This document shows, one piece after another, positions 2,785 to 11,761 of a DNA stretch of 33,730 bases (the stretch's first letter is position 1; every line of letters starts with the position of its first letter). The stretch spans positions 1 to 33,730 of the forward strand of contig PCUD01000058.1 of the NCBI GenBank assembly GCA_002786785.1, in the 5' to 3' direction. Source of the stretch: Ignavibacteriales bacterium CG18_big_fil_WC_8_21_14_2_50_31_20. Lineage in GTDB: Bacteria > Bacteroidota > Ignavibacteria > Ignavibacteriales > Melioribacteraceae. The position numbers and the translations under genes were made by a program. The notes under the pieces are model-generated. The model saw only the letters and a program-made list of their open reading frames with translations. It was not told the DNA's origin and did not search any database.

Positions 2785-3567
2785 TTACACTTCACACGCG
2801 TGTTTTAGTGATTTAATAAGATTTATTGTTTCATCAATACTTTCGTTTTGCAGCGATTTAATAATTGCGCTTCCAACAATAAAGCCATCGGCAAAAGGGG
2901 AAAGTTGTTTAATGTTTTCTGGTTTGGATATACCAAATCCAACAAGCATTTTGTTATTGTTTACAATTTGATAAGTGGATTTTAGATTTTCTATTATCTT
3001 ATCATCAAATCCAGAACGCACACCAGTAGTGCCAGAAACCGAGACGCAGTATAGGAAGCCAGTGCTTTTGTTATCGAGTGTAATAATGCGATCGTTATCA
3101 CTTGTTGGAGTGGTTAAAAGAACTTTATCCAGCTTATCAGAAAATGAAGAGAAGAAATCGTCAAATTCTTCAAGAGGAACGTCGGGGATAATAAGTCCAT
3201 CAACGCCAGCGTTTATAGCATCCTGCTCAAATTGTTCTTTTCCGTATTGCATAATTGTGTTTGCGTAGCCCATTAAAATTAGTGGAGTATTGTTGCACTT
3301 TCTAATCTGCTCAGCAAATTGAAAAGTCTGTTTTTGTGTAATTCCATTTTGCAATGCAATTTGAGACGATTGCTGAATTACTCCGCCATCGGCAAGCGGA
3401 TCGCTAAAAGGCATTCCCAATTCTATTAAATCTGCGCCTGCTTCAATAATTCTGTTTGTGTTATACAAAAATTTATCAATTGTCGGAAATCCCGATGTAA
3501 GAAAAACTGATAATGCTTTTTTACCATCGTTGTTTATTTGTTCAATCGTGTTCTTAATCTTACTCAT
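2785..3567 (-). CDS. trpA: Tryptophan synthase alpha subunit
   Basis: TrpA (260 residues, normal length) cleaves indole-3-glycerol phosphate to indole and glyceraldehyde 3-phosphate and passes indole to TrpB. The catalytic segment IELGMPFSDPLADG holds the conserved Glu and Asp; LLTTPTSD and the loop YCVSVSGTTGVR are also present. It is the last gene of the trp cluster and is separated from trpB by a flavoprotein gene and by a 278-nt spacer (3568-3845) that contains an inserted palindromic element. Adjacent trpB-trpA is the usual arrangement, so this separation is unusual. The gene converges with res. Confidence 0.97.
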   Translation of the reverse strand: MSKIKNTIEQINNDGKKALSVFLTSGFPTIDKFLYNTNRIIEAGADLIELGMPFSDPLADGGVIQQSSQIALQNGITQKQTFQFAEQIRKCNNTPLILMGYANTIMQYGKEQFEQDAINAGVDGLIIPDVPLEEFDDFFSSFSDKLDKVLLTTPTSDNDRIITLDNKSTGFLYCVSVSGTTGVRSGFDDKIIENLKSTYQIVNNNKMLVGFGISKPENIKQLSPFADGFIVGSAIIKSLQNESIDETINLIKSLKHACEV

Positions 3568-3664
3568 AGTTTTATCTCTTAATTTTACTTCTATAATTCG
3601 TTATTATTTCTAAATTCTTTCATAAATCAAAAGGGCACACACCCCTTGATACTTCGCATCTTCC

Positions 3665-3813
3665 CCACTCAAGCAATGATGTCAACTTAAGCTTTGGTCA
3701 TTCCGCGATGTTCTTACGCGGAATCTAATTTATGGCTAAGATTCCCAACAAGAGCATTTGGGAATGACATAACTTAAAAGTATTTTCTTAAGTTGACAAC
3801 ATTGCCTCTCAAG
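3665..3813. mobile_element. 131-bp MITE-like palindromic element with 9-bp flanking direct repeats
   Basis: The element body is 3674-3804. It begins CAATGATGTCAACTTAAG (3674-3691) and ends with the inverted copy CTTAAGTTGACAACATTG (3787-3804), matching at 17 of 18 positions. Directly outside lie CCACTCAAG (3665-3673) and CCTCTCAAG (3805-3813), 8 of 9 identical and in direct orientation, as expected of a target duplication. Inside is a second palindrome, GTCATTCC...GGAATGAC (3697-3768), of the kind seen in other spacers here. No coding capacity is visible. The size, terminal repeats and duplication suggest a non-autonomous transposable element, but only one copy is in the window. It makes up about half of the spacer upstream of trpA, which otherwise shows only a short AAGGG/CCCTT hairpin near 3631-3647. 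Confidence 0.6.
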
Positions 3814-3845
3814 AGGGTATTTTAATGGAAATTTTAAAATTATAT

Positions 3846-4298
3846 TTATTTACGTGCTTTGCCAGTCATATTTTTAATTGTTAATTTCAGAACCTTTGTT
3901 TCATCTTTAGCTTTATTAATATATTTTAGACCTTCGGTAATAAAATTGGGTGAATACTTTTTGACTAAGCCTTCCAATCCAATTTGTTTTTCAGCTTCTG
4001 TTGCTTCTTCAATAATTCCAGAAACAATAACGCTTTCGTATTTTGTACTAAATTTACTCTGTAATATTTCGGTTTTTCCAACAACACAAAAGGAAACGGT
4101 GCTGTTAGACAAAAAATTATCCAGCTTTTTACCTTCCAATGCTGAATGAAAATAAATTGCATCATCAACTAAATAATAGCTTAGCGGTACTCCATAAGGT
4201 TCACCGCTTTCTGATACAGAGGATAAAACTCCATATTCGCAATTATTTAATAATTGCATTGTTTCTTCTTTTGATATTGCTCTGTCTGATCTTCGCAT
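3846..4298 (-). CDS. Pyridoxamine 5'-phosphate oxidase-like flavoprotein (NimA type)
   Basis: A 150-residue split-barrel FMN-binding protein. It opens MRRSDRAISKEE and carries the YFHSALEGKKLDNF segment typical of the NimA/PNPOx-like family, whose members bind FMN or heme and include 5-nitroimidazole reductases; the physiological substrate is usually unknown. No membrane segment or signal peptide is seen. It sits between trpB and trpA in the same orientation, flanked by spacers of 151 and 278 nt that each contain a palindromic repeat. That position suggests insertion into the trp cluster rather than a defined role in tryptophan synthesis. Family assignment is firm; function is not. Confidence 0.85.
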   Translation of the reverse strand: MRRSDRAISKEETMQLLNNCEYGVLSSVSESGEPYGVPLSYYLVDDAIYFHSALEGKKLDNFLSNSTVSFCVVGKTEILQSKFSTKYESVIVSGIIEEATEAEKQIGLEGLVKKYSPNFITEGLKYINKAKDETKVLKLTIKNMTGKARK

Positions 4299-4340
4299 GT
4301 TATTTATATAACCCGTTAATTTGATTCAAAATAATAAATC

Positions 4341-4421
4341 TGTCATTCTGAGGAGCGAAGCGACATGAGAATCTTTTTTAGTAATCAGAAAATAAGATTT
4401 CTCTCTTCGTTCGAAATGACA
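4341..4421. repeat. Palindromic intergenic repeat (TGTCATT...AATGACA type)
   Basis: The outer arms TGTCATTC and GAAATGACA bracket inner arms GAGAATCTT and AAGATTTCTC. The left half includes GGAGCGAAGCGACATGAGAA and the right half CTCTTCGTTCG. This is a GTCATT-bounded repeat of the style found in several spacers here. It fills most of the gap between trpB and the NimA-like gene and would form a large hairpin in the cluster transcript. Confidence 0.7.
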
Positions 4422-4449
4422 TTTTAACTTTTGAGACAAACTCTTTAAA

Positions 4450-5652
4450 TTAAAATTTAATTTTATTAATAAATGTATTCAAATCCTTATCGCCACGTCC
4501 GCTAAGGTTTATTACAACTATATCATCTTTATTTGTATTTGGCATTAAATATTTCAAATGAGCAAGTGCGTGCGATGATTCCAAAGCTGGAAGAATTCCT
4601 TCAAGTCTGGAAAGTTGTAACGCGGCATCAAGTGCTTCATCATCAGTTATTGAAGAATATTGGACGCGATTTAAATCCTTCAATAAACTATGTTCTGGAC
4701 CTACACCAGGGTAATCCAAACCAGCGGAGATTGAATGTACCTCACTAATTTGTCCATCCTTATCCTGCAAAAGATATGTATTCATCCCTTGAAAAACTCC
4801 AGGTCTGCCAAGTGTTAACGTTGCGCAATGCTTATCAGTATCAATACCATAACCACCGGCTTCAATTCCAATAAGTTTAACTTCTGGATTATTGATAAAC
4901 GGATAAAAAATTCCAATTGCATTTGAACCACCTCCAACGCAGGCTATAATATAATCAGGATTTCTTCCTTCAAAATTATTAATTTGAGTTTTAGTTTCTT
5001 CACCAATAATTGATTGAAAATCACGCACAATCATTGGGTATGGATGAGGACCAACAACAGAGCCGATAATATAATGTGTGTTTTCAACATTTGTAACCCA
5101 ATCGCGAATTGCTTCATTTGTAGCATCTTTAAGAGTCTTACTTCCAGAAGTAACTGGGACAACTTTAGCCCCGAGCATTTTCATTCTGAACACATTCATT
5201 TCTTGACGCTCAATATCCACTTCGCCCATATAAACTGTGCATTCCAGACCAAATTTTGCGCAAACGGTTGCTGTAGCTACGCCATGTTGACCAGCGCCAG
5301 TTTCGGCAATAATGCGAGTTTTTCCCAGTCGTTTGGCAAGCAGAATTTGTCCGAGAGTGTTATTCATTTTGTGAGCACCAGTGTGGTTTAAGTCCTCTCG
5401 CTTTAGATATATTTTACCTTTGCCATAATGGTCAGTTAACCTATTTGCAAAAGTTAGCGGAGTTTCTCTTCCATTATAATTCTTTTGCAAGTCGTTTAAT
5501 TCTGCCAAAAAATCTGGGTCTGATTTTACAGAATTATATGTTTCTTCTAATTCATGAAGAGCCGACATTAAAGTTTCTGGTACAAATCTGCCTCCGAACT
5601 CTCCGAATTTACCTGCTGTTGAAGGCTGATTGTACATTGTTTGTTGTTCCAT
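4450..5652 (-). CDS. trpB: Tryptophan synthase beta subunit
   Basis: TrpB (400 residues, usual length of the TrpB1 class) is the PLP enzyme that condenses indole with serine to give tryptophan. HTGAHKMNN contains the Schiff-base lysine, ETGAGQHG follows, [10 protein letters not shown] is the phosphate-binding loop, and the C-terminal NLSGRGDKD is intact. The ATG at 5652 follows the aroF stop with one base between, so the two are probably translationally coupled. The protein looks complete and active. Its partner trpA is present but displaced downstream by one gene and two repeat-bearing spacers. Confidence 0.98.
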
Positions 5653-5653
5653 T

Positions 5654-6670
5654 TTAATTTAGCTCCCTATCTACAATTGGCGCTATTGCTTTAATTTTAT
5701 TAATTAATATTGACATTTGTTCTGGAGTAATCGTTTGCACGCCATCTGATAATGCGTTATCTGGATCGTTATGAACTTCAATAATAATTCCATCGGAACC
5801 TGCTGCAATTCCAGCCAAAGCCATTGGAGGCACTTTATCTCTTATCCCAATTCCATGCGAAGGGTCAACCAGTATTGGAAGATGTGAATTTTTTTTGATT
5901 ACTGGAATTGCGTTTAAATCAAGAGTGTTGCGTGTTGAAGTTTCAAAAGTTCTAATTCCACGTTCGCAAAGAATTACGTTAAAATTTCCCTGAGCTAAAA
6001 TATATTCGGCACTTAAAAGTAAATCCTCAACAGTTGCAGCTAAACCTCGTTTTAATAAAATTGGAGTGTTTATTTTTCCAACTTCATCAAGAAGAATAAA
6101 ATTTTGCATATTTCTTGCACCAATTTGAATAATATCAGCAACTTCTGCAACTAATGGAATAGTATCTGCGCTAAGCACTTCAGTTACAATGCCCATTCCA
6201 AATTCTTTTTTAACATCATCCAGCAATCTTAATCCTTCTTCGCCTAATCCACGGAATGCATATGGACTGCTTCGTGGTTTATAAGCGCCACCGCGCAGAA
6301 ATTTTACTCCAAGCTGCGATAAGCTTTCAGCAATTCTAAATAGTTGGTCTCTGCTTTCCACTGAACAGGGTCCAGCAATAATTGTGAGTTCCTTTCCGCC
6401 AATGTCTCCAAATTTAGTTTTAACAACAGTATCATTCTTTTTCATTTGGCGGCTAACAAGTTTATATTTTTTACTAACGCGAACAACTTCAATTACCGAA
6501 TTCATAAAGCGATATTCATCCTCAACCAGTTTATGAGTTGGACCGGTAATTCCAATCGCCAAGTTTGATTCGCCTGGAATTTCGTGTGGCTGACAGTTGT
6601 AACCAATTACTTTGCGTTTTATAGCTTCTATATCTTGTCTAGGCGCATCAAGATTTAACAGTATTAACAT
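5654..6670 (-). CDS. aroF: 3-deoxy-7-phosphoheptulonate synthase, type I-beta with N-terminal ferredoxin-like domain
   Basis: This DAHP synthase (338 residues) condenses phosphoenolpyruvate and erythrose 4-phosphate, the first step of the shikimate pathway. Residues 1 to about 75 form the ferredoxin-like regulatory domain known from Thermotoga-type enzymes, where Tyr or Phe bind; the barrel follows with [44 protein letters not shown] and VDPSHGIG, which carry the substrate and metal ligands. The start is ATG with AAGGAAA upstream. Its place between trpF and trpB ties precursor supply to the trp transcript. The effector cannot be read from the sequence; control by Tyr or Phe is inferred from domain type. 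Confidence 0.95.
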
Positions 6671-6723
6671 TATATTTTCCTTAATTTTTTAAAGTTTCTG
6701 TAAAATAAATACTTACTTATCAC

Positions 6724-6825
6724 TTTGTCATTTCGATTCCGATGTTTTTTATCGGGTGAGAAATCTCTCATAATCAGATAGATTTCTCACTCCCGACAAA
6801 CTTCGTCGGGGTTCGAAATGACAAA
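6724..6825. repeat. Palindromic intergenic repeat (TTTGTCATTTCGA...TCGAAATGACAAA)
   Basis: The outer arms are a perfect 13-bp inverted repeat, TTTGTCATTTCGA (6724-6736) and its complement (6813-6825). Nested arms GTGAGAAATCT/AGATTTCTCAC lie inside, along with two small hairpins, CCGAT/ATCGG and CCCGAC/GTCGGG. The repeat occupies nearly all of the trpF-aroF spacer, so the cluster transcript would carry a large cruciform-like RNA structure here. It shares its GTCATT/AATGAC ends with the repeats near 3.7, 4.4, 11.5 and 18.4 kb. Confidence 0.75.
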
Positions 6826-6829
6826 TTCG

Positions 6830-7444
6830 TTATTTTGCAACAACTTTATTATATTTTTCAAAAAGTTTTTCAAGTTTATCTTTATCCTTAATACCAGGCT
6901 CAACTTCAACGGAAGATGAAATATCAATTCCATACGGATTTATATTAGTGTGAATTTCCTCAATGTTGTTTATGCCAACTCCACCAGCTATTATTATTTT
7001 GTTTCGAATATTTTTTGGAATTAAATTCCAATCGAATTGTTTTCCGGTACCGCCAAAATTTATTGTGTCTTTTACATCCAAGATAATTCCACAATTGTTA
7101 AACTCTGCTAAAACGGAGAAATCAAAATCTCCATCAATTCCAAAACTTTTTATAACGGGATAATTGATTTGTGAAATATATTCAAGTGATTCGTTGCCAT
7201 GTAATTGAACAGCAGTGAGTTTTACTAAACCTGCAATTCTGTTTACTTCCTCAATTTCCTCATTTACAAATACTCCAATTTTGTGAACAAAAGGAGGAAG
7301 CGAAAGGGAAATACTTTTTGCATTTTCTGGTGCAATATAACGTTTACTTTTTGGATAAAAGATGAATCCAATTGCATCAGCTCCAAGATTAGCGCATAGT
7401 TGAGCGTCTTTTAATTTTGTTATTCCACAAATTTTGATTTTCAT
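6830..7444 (-). CDS. trpF: Phosphoribosylanthranilate isomerase
   Basis: TrpF (204 residues) carries out the Amadori rearrangement of phosphoribosylanthranilate to CdRP. The N-terminal KIKICGITKLKDA holds the catalytic cysteine; DAIGFIFYPKSKRY, VQLHGNE, an ILDVKD segment supplying the catalytic Asp, FGGTGKQFDW and the phosphate-binding IIAGGVGINNI follow. The length is standard and the start is ATG at 7444. Spacers on both sides (134 nt to trpC, 159 nt to aroF) contain palindromes, unlike the overlapping trpE-G-D-C genes upstream. Confidence 0.96.
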   Translation of the reverse strand: MKIKICGITKLKDAQLCANLGADAIGFIFYPKSKRYIAPENAKSISLSLPPFVHKIGVFVNEEIEEVNRIAGLVKLTAVQLHGNESLEYISQINYPVIKSFGIDGDFDFSVLAEFNNCGIILDVKDTINFGGTGKQFDWNLIPKNIRNKIIIAGGVGINNIEEIHTNINPYGIDISSSVEVEPGIKDKDKLEKLFEKYNKVVAK

Positions 7445-7475
7445 TTAGATCTCAAAAAGTTTCAAAATTTAACAG

Positions 7476-7569
7476 ATTGCTTCGTAGTTCAAAAAGACGA
7501 ACTTCTCGCAATGACTGTTTTTTCAATTATTCCAAACCTCCGAGGTTTTCAAAACCTTGGAGGTTTATT
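7476..7569. repeat. Two palindromes in the trpC-trpF spacer
   Basis: The first unit (about 7476-7515) has nested arms ATTGC/GCAAT and GTTC/GAAC. The second (about 7536-7569) pairs CCTCCGAGGTTTT with AAAACCTTGGAGG at 12 of 13 positions around a one-base loop. The second has no run of T on the transcribed strand long enough to make a convincing intrinsic terminator. Both resemble dispersed intergenic repeats more than promoter elements. Confidence 0.55.
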
Positions 7570-7578
7570 TTAAATTTT

Positions 7579-8370
7579 TTAATAGTAACAATATTCTTGT
7601 ATTTTTTTTACTGAATCGGCAATGCTTTCTGCTTTCATAAAATGTTCGCCAATAAGTACAGCATTTGTTTTAGTGTCTTTCAAAAAGTCAAAATTCCTTT
7701 GTTCACTTATTCCAGATTCTGAGACGAAAATGACATTTGCCGAAATTTGTTCGCTGATTTTTAAAGTCGTGTTCAAATCTGTTACAAAGTTCTTCAAATC
7801 GCGGTTATTTATTCCAATAATTTTGTTGAGTGAAAAATCAATTTTTGGAAGTTGATTTTCATTATGCAATTCCAAAAGGACTTTCATGCCAAGCTCAAAT
7901 GCTGCTTTGCTTAATTCTTCAATCTGGCTTTCGGATAAAATTTCTGTAATAAGAAGAATTGCATCGGCTCCGTTTGCTTTGGCTTCAAAAACTTGATATT
8001 CGTTTATGATAAAATCTTTCCGTAAAAGAGGAACGGATTTATATTTTGCAATCTCATTCAAATATAAAATGTTGCCTTGAAAAAACTGTTCGTCAGTGAG
8101 AACAGAAATTGCGTCAACGTTATTTTCCATATAAATATCAGCAATTATGAGTGGATTAAAATCCTTACGAATAATTCCTTTTGATGGAGAAGCTTTTTTT
8201 ACTTCTGCAATTATTGAAATAGCTTCTTTTTTTCGCAAAGCTTTTTCAAAGTTTAAGCATTCATTTGAGTAATATTCAGAATCTGAAAATCTAGAAATTG
8301 TAAAATCGCGTTTAAGCTTTTTCACTTCCTCAATTTTCACTTCTATTATTTGAGATAGAATATCAATCAT
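7579..8370 (-). CDS. trpC: Indole-3-glycerol phosphate synthase
   Basis: TrpC (263 residues from the ATG at 8370) closes the indole ring of CdRP. Conserved pieces are IIAEVKKASPSKGII with the catalytic lysine, the segment SVLTDEQFFQG, LLRKDFIINEYQ with a second catalytic lysine, GADAILLITEIL, LLELHNE, IGINNRDLKNF, and FVSESGI. A longer reading frame would need a TTG codon at 8382; the ATG is preferred because it gives MIDILSQII, typical of the family, and overlaps the trpD stop by 8 nt. TrpC and TrpF are separate here rather than fused. Confidence 0.96.
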   Translation of the reverse strand: MIDILSQIIEVKIEEVKKLKRDFTISRFSDSEYYSNECLNFEKALRKKEAISIIAEVKKASPSKGIIRKDFNPLIIADIYMENNVDAISVLTDEQFFQGNILYLNEIAKYKSVPLLRKDFIINEYQVFEAKANGADAILLITEILSESQIEELSKAAFELGMKVLLELHNENQLPKIDFSLNKIIGINNRDLKNFVTDLNTTLKISEQISANVIFVSESGISEQRNFDFLKDTKTNAVLIGEHFMKAESIADSVKKIQEYCYY

Positions 8371-9385
8371 TATTATTTCCAAAATCTATTAATGTATTTA
8401 ATTTTTCCAAAGCTTTTCCAGATTTAATAGAATCTTCGGCAGCTTGCTGTGCTTCTGATATTGTAGAATACTTACCAGTAGTATAAAGAGCCAGCGCAGC
8501 ATTTGCAATTACAACATTAAATTGAGAAACAGAACTTTGGTTATTAAAAATGTCCAATATAATTTTACCATTTTCAAGCGGTGTTCCACCTTTAATATCA
8601 TCCAAAACAATTTTTGGGAAGTTAAATGTCTCTGCATTTATTTCTCGAACTGTAATTGCTTTATCACCGTTAACTTCAACAATTTGTGAACTGTCTGTAA
8701 GTGTTATTTCATCATATTGATTATTTGTACAAACAAATGCTACTCTTTCCATCTTTAAAATCTTTGCAGCTTCTGCCATTTTAAAAGCAATATCGTAATT
8801 GAATGTACCAATCATTTGCTTTGTTGTACTTGCTGGATTTGTAAGCGGTCCAAGTACATTAAATATTGTTTTAAATCCCAATTCCAAACGGATTGGAGCA
8901 ACGTTCTTCATTGCTGGATGATAAATTGGTGCAAACAAAAAAGTAATTCCAATTTCTTCTAAAGCTTTTTTAGATTGTTCAGGAGTAAGTTCAATATTAA
9001 CTCCAAGCTCATTTAGAACGTCGGAGCTGCCACTTATACTAGTTATTGAACGATTACCATGCTTTGCTACATTTACACCAGCTCCGGCAACCACAAAAGC
9101 CGCAGCGGTAGAAATATTGAATGAACCCGAATTATCACCGCCTGTGCCGCAAACATCAATTAGGTTTTTGGAATTATGGAGTATTTTCACTCCATTATTT
9201 CTCATTGCATTCGCAAATCCCGCAATTTCGTGCGAAGTTTCACCTTTAATTCGCAATGCAGTCAATAAAGATGCAGTCTGCGAACCGTTAACTTGGCCAT
9301 TCATCAACAAATTAGCAACTTCTTCGGCTTCCCAAAACGTTAAATCTTTTTTATCGAACAGTTTATTTAATGTTGTTTTTATCAT
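8363..9385 (-). CDS. trpD: Anthranilate phosphoribosyltransferase
   Basis: TrpD (340 residues from ATG at 9385) transfers phosphoribose from PRPP to anthranilate. The PRPP-binding CGTGGDNSGSFNIST and the KHGNRSITSISGSSDVL, HPAMKNVAPIRLELGF and NVLGPLTNPA motifs are intact. The start shares the ATGA overlap with the trpG stop (9382-9385), and the open frame upstream of it begins only at a TTG. The glutamine amidotransferase is a separate gene, not fused as in enteric TrpGD. Confidence 0.97.
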   Translation of the reverse strand: MIKTTLNKLFDKKDLTFWEAEEVANLLMNGQVNGSQTASLLTALRIKGETSHEIAGFANAMRNNGVKILHNSKNLIDVCGTGGDNSGSFNISTAAAFVVAGAGVNVAKHGNRSITSISGSSDVLNELGVNIELTPEQSKKALEEIGITFLFAPIYHPAMKNVAPIRLELGFKTIFNVLGPLTNPASTTKQMIGTFNYDIAFKMAEAAKILKMERVAFVCTNNQYDEITLTDSSQIVEVNGDKAITVREINAETFNFPKIVLDDIKGGTPLENGKIILDIFNNQSSVSQFNVVIANAALALYTTGKYSTISEAQQAAEDSIKSGKALEKLNTLIDFGNNND

Positions 9386-9975
9386 TGTTCTAACCAATTT
9401 CTAATTATTGTTTCACCTTCGGGAGTTAATATTGATTCTGGATGAAATTGAATTCCTTCAATTGGATACTTTTTATGTTTAATTCCCATAATTATTTTAT
9501 CTTTTGTCATGGATGTTATTTCTAAATCATCTGGAATGGAATCTGCACTTACAACCAACGAATGATACCTTCCAGCACTGAAATTAGGGTTTACATCCTT
9601 GAAAATTCCAGTTCCATTATGTTCAACTTCGGATGATTTTCCGTGCATTAAAACATGAGTATTTACAACTTTAGCTCCAAAAACTTCACCAATTGCTTGA
9701 TGACCAAGGCACACGCCCAATACTGGAGTATGTTTGCCAATTGTTTTAAGAATATCAATTGAAATTCCAGAATCCGAAGGTCTTCCAGGTCCAGGTGAAA
9801 TTACAATTTTATCTGGATTTAGCTCTAAAATCTCATCAATTGTAATTTTATCATTTCGTTTTACAATAATATTTTGTGTAAACTTTCCAATAAGCTGCAC
9901 AAGATTAAACGTAAATGAATCGTAATTATCAATTACTAAAATTTTTAATTCACTCAAATTATCTGTTTGGTTCAT
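9382..9975 (-). CDS. trpG: Anthranilate synthase component II, glutamine amidotransferase
   Basis: TrpG (197 residues) releases ammonia from glutamine for TrpE. The class I triad is visible: the nucleophile in GVCLGHQAIGE, and the His and Glu in IQFHPESILTP. LVIDNYDSFTFNLVQ and VISPGPGRPSDSG are also characteristic. The ATG at 9975 has a GGAG about 8 nt upstream inside the end of trpE and overlaps trpE by 17 nt, implying coupled translation and a 1:1 complex. The protein could also serve PabB, since no second amidotransferase is in view. Confidence 0.96.
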   Translation of the reverse strand: MNQTDNLSELKILVIDNYDSFTFNLVQLIGKFTQNIIVKRNDKITIDEILELNPDKIVISPGPGRPSDSGISIDILKTIGKHTPVLGVCLGHQAIGEVFGAKVVNTHVLMHGKSSEVEHNGTGIFKDVNPNFSAGRYHSLVVSADSIPDDLEITSMTKDKIIMGIKHKKYPIEGIQFHPESILTPEGETIIRNWLEQ

Positions 9976-11434
9976 CAATTTCTCCTGCGTACTCTAAAGC
10001 TTTTAAAAGTACTGCGGCTTTATTATTTATTTCCTTCAACTCTAATTCTGGTTTACTATCAGCTACAATTCCAGCACCAGCTTGCCAATGGATTTTATTT
10101 TTAATTGCAAAAAGAGTACGGATTGCGATGCACATATCAAGATTTCCGCGAAAATCGATATAACCAACTGCGCCGGCGTAAATATTTCGCAAACTATTTT
10201 CGTATTCGTTAATTAATTCCATTGCTCTAATTTTAGGCGCACCTGAAACTGTTCCAGCAGGAAATGCAGCTTTGAAGGCATCAATTGAATCTTTATCATC
10301 TTCCAATTCACCTTCAACTCTTGAAACAATATGCATCACATGTGAAAAACGATGTATGTTCATGTAATCTTTTATGTTAATAGTTTTAAATTTGCAAACT
10401 CTTCCTAAATCGTTTCGGGCTAAATCGACAAGCATAATATGTTCTGCAAGTTCTTTTGGATCTGCCAATAATTCTTTTTCGAGTAATAAATCTTTGTCGT
10501 TAGTTTTACCACGCTTGCGTGTTCCGGCAATTGGAAGTATGCTTGCTTTTCTATTTTGCACTTTTATCAAATCTTCGGGCGACGTTCCAATTACAGTAAT
10601 TTCTTCGGGCAATTCCATAAAGTACATATATGGCGAGGGATTTATAATTCTTAATGCACGATAAAGATTTAGCAAATCACCTTTATAATCGGCAGTAAAT
10701 CGTTTGGAAAGAACAAGTTGAAAAACATCACCGTTGTAAATATTTTGTTTTGCTTTTTCGACAACATCAAAAAATTTGGATGAATTAAAATCATTATCTT
10801 CTTCAAGCTCAAAACTAAAATCTGATTTATAACTTATTGGAGTTGTTAATTCTGCTTTTACTTTAGCAATTTTTTGTTTTGCTTTTTCAAACTCCACATC
10901 CAAATCATAATCACTATTTAAATGCACATTTGAAATAATTAGTAATTGATGTTTAAAATGGTCAAACGCTATTATTGTATTAAAAATTCCAAGAATTGAA
11001 TCTGGAGTTTCGGAGTTTTCGTGGTTATCAAATTTGAGTTTGTCTTCAATTAAAGAAATGTTTTCGTAACCGATGTAGCCAACAATTCCGCCAGTAAAAT
11101 CGGGTAAATCTTCTATAGTCGGGAATTTATATGAAGCAATTTCTGTTTTTAGATAATCAAAAAGATTTTCATCCAAAACTTCATCATTATTGTTTGAATA
11201 GATTTTCAGCTTTCTATTTCGGTTGGAAATTATTTTATGCGGATCTTTTCCAATAAACGAATATCTCGCAAGTCTGCCAATTCCTTCAACCGATTCTAGC
11301 AAAAAGCAGAATTTTTCTTTTTCTCTTAATTTTAGAAACGCAAGAACTGGAGTTAGCATATCGCCAGTAACTCTTTCGTAAACTGGAATTACGTTAAATT
11401 CATTTGCAAGTATTTTAAATTTTTCTTTATTCAT
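9959..11434 (-). CDS. trpE: Anthranilate synthase component I
   Basis: TrpE (491 residues) converts chorismate plus ammonia to anthranilate. The feedback-binding LLES motif is at residues 45-48, followed by RYSFIGKDP. The catalytic domain shows VIGTSPEDLI, LPIAGTRKRG, LVDLARNDLGRVC, HIVSRVEGEL, FPAGTVSGAPKIRAMELI and the C-terminal QAGAGIVADSKPE, all as in family members. The LLES motif suggests the enzyme is itself inhibited by tryptophan. It is the first structural gene after the leader peptide and terminator at 11577-11721, and it overlaps trpG. Confidence 0.97.
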   Translation of the reverse strand: MNKEKFKILANEFNVIPVYERVTGDMLTPVLAFLKLREKEKFCFLLESVEGIGRLARYSFIGKDPHKIISNRNRKLKIYSNNNDEVLDENLFDYLKTEIASYKFPTIEDLPDFTGGIVGYIGYENISLIEDKLKFDNHENSETPDSILGIFNTIIAFDHFKHQLLIISNVHLNSDYDLDVEFEKAKQKIAKVKAELTTPISYKSDFSFELEEDNDFNSSKFFDVVEKAKQNIYNGDVFQLVLSKRFTADYKGDLLNLYRALRIINPSPYMYFMELPEEITVIGTSPEDLIKVQNRKASILPIAGTRKRGKTNDKDLLLEKELLADPKELAEHIMLVDLARNDLGRVCKFKTINIKDYMNIHRFSHVMHIVSRVEGELEDDKDSIDAFKAAFPAGTVSGAPKIRAMELINEYENSLRNIYAGAVGYIDFRGNLDMCIAIRTLFAIKNKIHWQAGAGIVADSKPELELKEINNKAAVLLKALEYAGEIDEPNR

Positions 11435-11457
11435 ATTTCTTTTCCAAAAGTATTTAC

Positions 11458-11554
11458 GTCATTTCCGCCTGTTCCAAGCATTTTTTCGGGACAATCTTTA
11501 AGCGGGAATCTCTACCACTTGCTGAGATTCCGTGTTGAAGCATCACGGAATGGC
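11458..11554. repeat. Palindromic intergenic repeat between trp attenuator and trpE
   Basis: The unit is bounded by GTCATTTCC and GGAATGGC, with inner arms such as GGGAATCTC/GAGATTCCG and CCGTG/CACGG. It is a less perfect relative of the GTCATT-type palindromes elsewhere in the window. It sits in the leader transcript after the attenuator terminator, so it would be transcribed only on read-through into trpE. Confidence 0.6.
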
Positions 11555-11576
11555 ATTCATTATTTTCAATCTGTAT

Positions 11577-11613
11577 ATAAAAAAAACCCTTCTCAGCGAT
11601 AGGAAGGGTTTTT
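11577..11613 (-). terminator. Intrinsic terminator of the trp leader (attenuator)
   Basis: On the minus strand an 11-bp stem, AAAAACCCTTC (11603-11613) with GAAGGGTTTTT (11582-11592), encloses a 10-nt loop and runs straight into further U residues (opposite 11577-11581). It lies between the trpL stop codon and trpE. An alternative pairing of CUCAGUG (opposite 11635-11641) with CGCUGAG (opposite 11592-11598), extended by AUAG/CUAU across the rest of the loop, would sequester the loop. CUGGGC in the Trp-codon region (opposite 11672-11677) can instead pair with GCUCAG (opposite 11637-11642). These three mutually competing pairings are what ribosome-mediated attenuation requires. Confidence 0.8.
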
Positions 11614-11649
11614 AAATCTATTATTTCTATTTTTCACTGAGCGATATAA

Positions 11650-11721
11650 TTATAGGATGAACTGCCACCAAGCCCAGTTGTTGTTTTTGTTTAAAGTTGA
11701 TATGTTTAATAAGTTTTTCAT
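11650..11721 (-). CDS. trpL: trp operon leader peptide
   Basis: This is a 23-codon ORF with an ATG start and TAA stop. Codons 16-19 read Trp-Ala-Trp-Trp (UGG GCU UGG UGG); three Trp in 23 residues in an AT-rich genome is far from random expectation. It precedes an intrinsic terminator 36 nt after its stop codon, upstream of trpE. By analogy with enteric trpL, ribosome stalling at these codons when charged tRNA-Trp is scarce would favour the antiterminator and let transcription enter trpE. No good Shine-Dalgarno sequence is seen before the ATG, and the promoter candidate would leave only a few bases of 5' leader. The peptide itself need have no function. Confidence 0.85.
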   Translation of the reverse strand: MKNLLNISTLNKNNNWAWWQFIL

Positions 11722-11731
11722 AATGGGATGC

Positions 11732-11761
11732 AATATATTGATAATTAATAATGGATGTCAA
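11732..11761 (-). promoter_or_regulatory. Candidate housekeeping promoter for trpL-trpE
   Basis: On the minus strand TTGACA (opposite 11756-11761), an 18-nt spacer and TATATT (opposite 11732-11737) match the -35/-10 consensus well. The start site would fall near 11725, only about 4 nt before the trpL ATG, so the leader might be nearly leaderless; a promoter further upstream is possible. No operator palindrome is obvious, in keeping with control by attenuation. Confidence 0.5.

Follow-up and report, generated by a model that had tools for sequence, protein, structure and literature searches.

The leader region upstream of trpE

The window analyzed here is a stretch of 33,730 nucleotides (nt) from an Ignavibacteriales bacterium (contig PCUD01000058.1), and the element under study is a putative transcription attenuator located on its minus strand, upstream of the trp operon (Table 1). 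An initial annotation, made from the letters alone, had described a leader open reading frame (ORF) with three Trp codons in four positions and, 36 nt beyond its stop codon, an intrinsic terminator with an 11-bp stem and a U tract, all upstream of trpE; the sequence bears out these features and their coordinates. Its guess of an Ignavibacteria-like genome was also right, as the named matches belong to the Melioribacteraceae, order Ignavibacteriales. The same annotation had drawn a pairing between a segment downstream of the Trp codons (segment A) and the terminator loop (segment C). This pairing exists and is one pair longer than drawn (CUCAGUGA:UCGCUGAG, -12.5 kcal/mol). As had been noted, it occupies the terminator loop and just one base of the perfect stem (G11592), and this unusual geometry proved to be conserved across the order.

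Table 1. Coordinates of the trp leader features and operon genes in the window.
Feature	Position	Strand	Basis or remark
-35 element TTGACA	11756-11761	-	TTGAC[AT] with 16-18 nt spacing to the -10 in nearly all relatives that have a strong promoter match
-10 element TATATT	11732-11737	-	family consensus TATnTTTG
Leader ORF MKNLLNISTLNKNNNWAWWQFIL*	11650-11721	-	23 codons
ACATAT element	11700-11705	-	16 nt 3' of leader ATG
Regulatory codons TGG GCT TGG TGG (W-A-W-W)	11665-11676	-	sequence; Trp codons at 11676-11674, 11670-11668, 11667-11665
Segment 1 (ACUGGGC), potential partner of segment A	11672-11678	-	genus-level support, not order-wide
Segment A, antiterminator 5' strand CUCAGUGA	11634-11641	-	pairing energies, swaps, alignment, covariation
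Terminator 5' arm AAAAACCCTTC	11603-11613	-	pairing and covariation
Segment C UCGCUGAG, terminator loop and top of 3' arm, partner of A	11592-11599	-	pairing energies, swaps, covariation
Terminator 3' arm GAAGGGTTTTT	11582-11592	-	pairing and covariation
U tract, eight T	11579-11586	-	sequence
trpE, first gene of the controlled operon	9959-11434	-	Pfam Anth_synt_I_N and Chorismate_bind
trpG, trpD, trpC, trpF, DAHP synthase, trpB, PNPOx-like ORF, trpA	2785-9978	-	downstream of trpE

Conservation of the putative attenuator in Ignavibacteriales

TrpE was searched for in 97 related genomes, most of which have a full-length orthologue. The first 65 trpE upstream regions were not selected for leader or terminator. 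All 65 of these Ignavibacteriales loci have a short upstream ORF containing two to five Trp codons, clustered in 64 of them, and nearly all have a terminator of the form AACCCTTCTnAG..CTnAGAAGGGTTTTTT just upstream of trpE. The comparison with relatives that the initial annotation had proposed thus yielded a Trp-rich ORF throughout, and stems that covary (see below); no relative lacking both the ORF and the terminator occurred. A second set comprises 72 distinct loci selected for having both leader and terminator. A strict scan recovered a clustered-Trp short ORF in 72/72 of them and the ORF together with the terminator in 58/72, vs. 24/720 and 0/720, respectively, in dinucleotide-shuffled upstream regions. 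The initial observation is confirmed and cannot be put down to chance.

A covariance model for the attenuator matched, in addition, ahead of trpB in a genome that lacks a close trpE match (L157, G008 contig 73), and revealed a second, paralogous copy upstream of a DAHP synthase gene (L158, G063 contig 46), whose leader, MKTMNSTYYFNFTWSFYGFSRFYICPWILVN, is rich in aromatic residues (Phe/Tyr/Trp). Further matches beyond the trp, trpB, and DAHP loci were considered, and those inspected look like ordinary terminators. In the window's own genome (L170, G000 contig 122) and in most relatives examined (L167-L182, L185), hisG is preceded by a His-rich leader ORF with a terminator. Leader codon identity therefore tracks the pathway, with Trp clusters at trp, His runs at hisG, and an aromatic-rich leader at DAHP synthase.

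The antiterminator pairs with the terminator loop and 3' arm

The RNA lying between the last Trp codon and the terminator was paired in turn, locus by locus, with the terminator 5' arm, the loop plus the top of the 3' arm, and the outer 3' arm, giving mean energies of -4.8, -10.8, and -5.0 kcal/mol, respectively (74 loci). The loop and 3' arm were preferred over the 5' arm in 66 of the 72 trp loci of the order (mean -10.9 vs. -5.2 kcal/mol), and the z score of this pairing relative to shuffled partners had a median of -3.7 (72 loci). When C was exchanged among 53 representatives, the mean energy went from -10.5 to -7.7 (sd, standard deviation, 0.28; 0/10,000 permutations), a cost of about 2.8 kcal/mol. 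When the loops alone were exchanged among the same representatives and the arm was kept, the mean went to -8.1 (0/10,000). Since the terminator does not constrain its loop, the rejection of loop swaps indicates that the loop pairing itself is selected.

Covariation supports the same helix. In a MAFFT alignment of 68 sequences made with no structural information, A is in register in nearly all, and the core A:C helix (columns 31-37 with 99-105) is 91% paired (84.7% for the 9-pair structure counted with it). Base pairs are exchanged at several positions: U-A 32, C-G 19, U-G 5, and A-U 1 at 32:104; C-G 53, U-A 6, and A-U 2 at 33:103; and A-U 46, G-U 9, and G-C 8 at 34:102. Double-change cells numbered 45 for A:C, vs. 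17.3 +/- 3.8 in shuffles (0/500). The shuffle control leaves relatedness in; the control in which the partner is slid by one to three columns retains relatedness, and there pairing still drops, from 85% to 31-45%. The terminator, in the same alignment, is paired in 96% of cells and shows covariation as well. The base that its 5' arm presents at 91:103 often gives just U-G where A gives C-G, so that A tends to out-pair the inner arm of the terminator for C. A:C is a conserved antiterminator, mutually exclusive with the terminator through the common segment C.

An enteric-type organization, in which the terminator 5' arm is captured and A:C is secondary because A resembles the inner 5' arm that pairs with C, is improbable here. 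This design does exist close by: the 5' arm is captured in 26/29 trp leaders of the same phylum outside the order (mean -15.4 vs. -6.7 kcal/mol), in 13/14 his leaders within the order (-11.5 vs. -5.8), and in the Escherichia coli trp control (-10.9 vs. -4.5 for loop and 3' arm), and three loci of the order itself (L104, L054, and L064) look to be of this type. However, the preference of A for the loop and 3' arm runs the other way at most loci of the order, and its complementarity reaches into a loop that the terminator leaves unconstrained, where swaps were rejected. For the order Ignavibacteriales, the classical 5'-arm antiterminator was rejected on the strength of the energy and swap tests.

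The initial annotation had also proposed a helix between the Trp codons and A (1:2). This part stood for the window genus, where the codons pair with A as ACUGGGC:GCUCAGU (-11.3 kcal/mol), and for some other lineages, with good pairing in L032 and L041. As a general feature of the order it is not supported: across 58 representatives, own pairs were not clearly better than swapped pairs (927/10,000 permutations).

Spacing and co-transcriptional folding

The last Trp codon and A are separated by 21 nt (interquartile range, IQR, 20-22; sd 1.9), while the position of the stop codon floats over some 28 nt (sd 7.5), with A overlapping or flanking the stop. Measured from the end of the stop codon, the start of A ranges from 18 nt upstream to 10 nt downstream, and in 71/72 loci it falls within -20 to +9, in reach of a terminating ribosome. 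From this spacing and the position of the stop, a ribosome stalled on the Trp codons is expected to leave A free, and a ribosome at the stop codon to cover all or part of A. A folding model was used in which just the RNA between the ribosome edge and the polymerase is folded, with C newly exposed. In this model, 99% of loci formed A:C when the ribosome was stalled, vs. 12% when it was at the stop codon.

That the Trp-rich ORF is untranslated, and the terminator constitutive or part of a protein-controlled attenuator, is very improbable. The leader ORF has no Shine-Dalgarno sequence, which this explanation would accommodate, and in other phyla trp is controlled by Trp-specific binding proteins, such as TRAP of Bacillus. 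Against it stand the match between leader codons and pathway and the position of the stop codon, which floats but almost always brings a terminating ribosome onto A.

C ends a median of 12 nt (IQR 11-13) before the last U of the U run. If RNA polymerase buries about this much RNA, C would emerge as the enzyme gets to the end of the U tract.

Several results weigh against an A:C helix that prevents termination. Besides the three loci mentioned above, which pair A better with the terminator 5' arm, 13/72 loci do no better than shuffles at p 0.05. In the window genome, the folding model still allows A:C with the ribosome at the stop codon until 4 more nt have emerged. Once 8 more nt are exposed, the full terminator is favored at equilibrium in both ribosome states; since the terminator wins at equilibrium, antitermination would have to be kinetic rather than an equilibrium effect. 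Finally, as A:C leaves the outer terminator arms free, topology would allow a pseudoknot containing both helices, which might make antitermination weaker. A functional version of this, in which A:C and the outer terminator stem coexist, for example as a slowed or protein-bound terminator, is unlikely: the spacing permits it (a median linker of 24.5 nt from A to the 5' arm, with C continuous with the outer 3' arm), but a pseudoknot that terminated upon ribosome stalling would invert the regulatory logic.

Proposed mechanism

Conservation, covariation, spacing, and mutually exclusive pairings make it very probable that the trp operon is controlled by ribosome-mediated transcription attenuation, with an antiterminator in an unusual register; the window leader would accordingly respond to Trp and terminate transcription. 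RNA polymerase may start about 3 nt 5' of the leader ATG, with the ribosome following. When charged tRNA-Trp is scarce, the ribosome would stall on the W-A-W-W codons and leave A, some 21 nt further on, exposed to pair with C as C exits the polymerase. A:C would then act by blocking nucleation of the terminator hairpin while the polymerase occupies the U tract, letting transcription proceed into trpE. When Trp is plentiful, the ribosome would reach the stop codon and cover A, and the terminator would form. In the window genus, the Trp codons of an untranslated RNA could also pair with A and so make it inaccessible.

A broader proposal is offered tentatively, as a single joint claim. In Ignavibacteriales, the trp antiterminator may have moved from the terminator 5' arm to the loop and 3' arm, where it blocks nucleation at the last moment, when the polymerase has already reached the U tract; and a near-leaderless start together with the element A[CA]ATAT, some 18 nt past the ATG, may form a common front end of the order's trp attenuators and many of its his attenuators, which loads the ribosome or pauses the polymerase.

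Promoter and start of the leader

The promoter candidate of the initial annotation, TTGACA/TATATT in the window, is conserved in relatives, with the leader ATG close behind the predicted start. In the window, the two elements are separated by a spacer of 18 nt (between 11756 and 11737), and the transcript is predicted from the sequence to start at about 11724, which would give a 5' untranslated region (UTR) of about 3 nt. The pattern TTGACA-(16-20)-TATnTTTG scored at least 12 of 14 in 61/72 loci vs. 40/1440 mononucleotide shuffles. As the leader ATG typically lies 5-12 nt past the -10 motif, the usual start distance suggests a near-leaderless mRNA with a 5' UTR of about 2-4 nt.

The motif A[CA]ATAT is found upstream of the Trp codons in 65/72 loci, exactly 18 nt from the ATG in 48 and within 15-20 nt in 64, vs. 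2/120 ordinary ORFs with the motif at 14-20. Where it encodes Thr-Tyr, the codons are ACA TAT in 42/42 cases, though these account for 43% of Thr and 60% of Tyr codons. A[CA]ATAT is conserved at the nucleotide level. Among his leaders, 8 of the 14 measured carry it (offsets 16-18) and the remainder do not. Carriers include the window (Table 1), leaders L001-L103, and L167, L168, L170, L172, L173, and L185. Across 39 genomes, a strict pattern of promoter plus motif matched seven trp leaders and one his leader; matches to a looser pattern (promoter, A[CA]ATAT, and TGG) mostly look like chance.

Comparison with known attenuators

In E. coli trpL (Trp_leader, RF00513), a short leader ORF with tandem Trp codons likewise precedes a terminator located before trpE, and a mutually exclusive antiterminator is exposed by the stalled ribosome; however, the E. 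coli antiterminator captures the 5' arm, whereas that of Ignavibacteriales captures the loop and 3' arm. Searches of Rfam at gathering and relaxed thresholds returned no credible match (best at relaxed threshold, FdoG1_thermometer, 25.5 bits vs. a cut-off of 50). In Sinorhizobium meliloti, the trpL (rnTrpL) transcript begins at the leader ATG and the leader mRNA is leaderless (PMC7298713). The Ignavibacteriales leaders differ in sequence and phylum, in their predicted 5' UTR of 2-4 nt, and in carrying a conserved A[CA]ATAT about 18 nt past the ATG.

Ribosome-mediated trp attenuation is also found outside Proteobacteria in Corynebacterium and Streptomyces, whose attenuators have two or three UGG codons and complementary triples (gGCC-rGCy-GGCC) called analogous to those of proteobacteria; in the available part of that source, loop capture is not described (PMC1262725). 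A genome-wide study of 2010 stated that leader-peptide systems were known just in Proteobacteria and Actinobacteria, except for the atypical ermC leader, and added its own hisS case in Firmicutes (PMC2965389). A later study counted short leader genes in Bacteroidetes, and the part available does not describe trp attenuators there (PMC4833913). In the open-access literature, with subscription literature outside the scope of the search, no direct description of trp attenuation was found for Bacteroidetes, Chlorobi, Ignavibacteria, or Cytophaga; the remark in the initial annotation that no description was known for this lineage holds within that literature.

Many other families of the phylum likewise have WWW(P) leaders with terminators ahead of trpE (L076-L081, L119-L147); no description of these was found either. 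The trp leaders of other classes (L076-L147) resemble those of the order in their Trp-rich leader and terminator before trpE and are probably homologous to them, but differ in their 5'-arm antiterminator.

These results would add a phylum-level group, in which no description was found, to those with leader-peptide attenuation of trp (and his). They also suggest that apparently homologous attenuators can change their antiterminator register, which is usually regarded as fixed. With classical his leaders and loop-capturing trp leaders in the same genomes, both designs can be compared within one cell. In addition, the element 18 nt past the leader ATG makes it testable how near-leaderless leader RNAs capture a ribosome fast enough to control the polymerase.

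Downstream genes and spacer

The genes from trpE through trpA are probably co-transcribed. An ORF with a PNPOx-like (flavin-binding) fold lies between trpB and trpA (3846-4298). The long spacer between the terminator and trpE (11440-11565) is shared with the closest relative (L002) and resembles a dispersed repeat, with two partial similar stretches elsewhere in the same genome.
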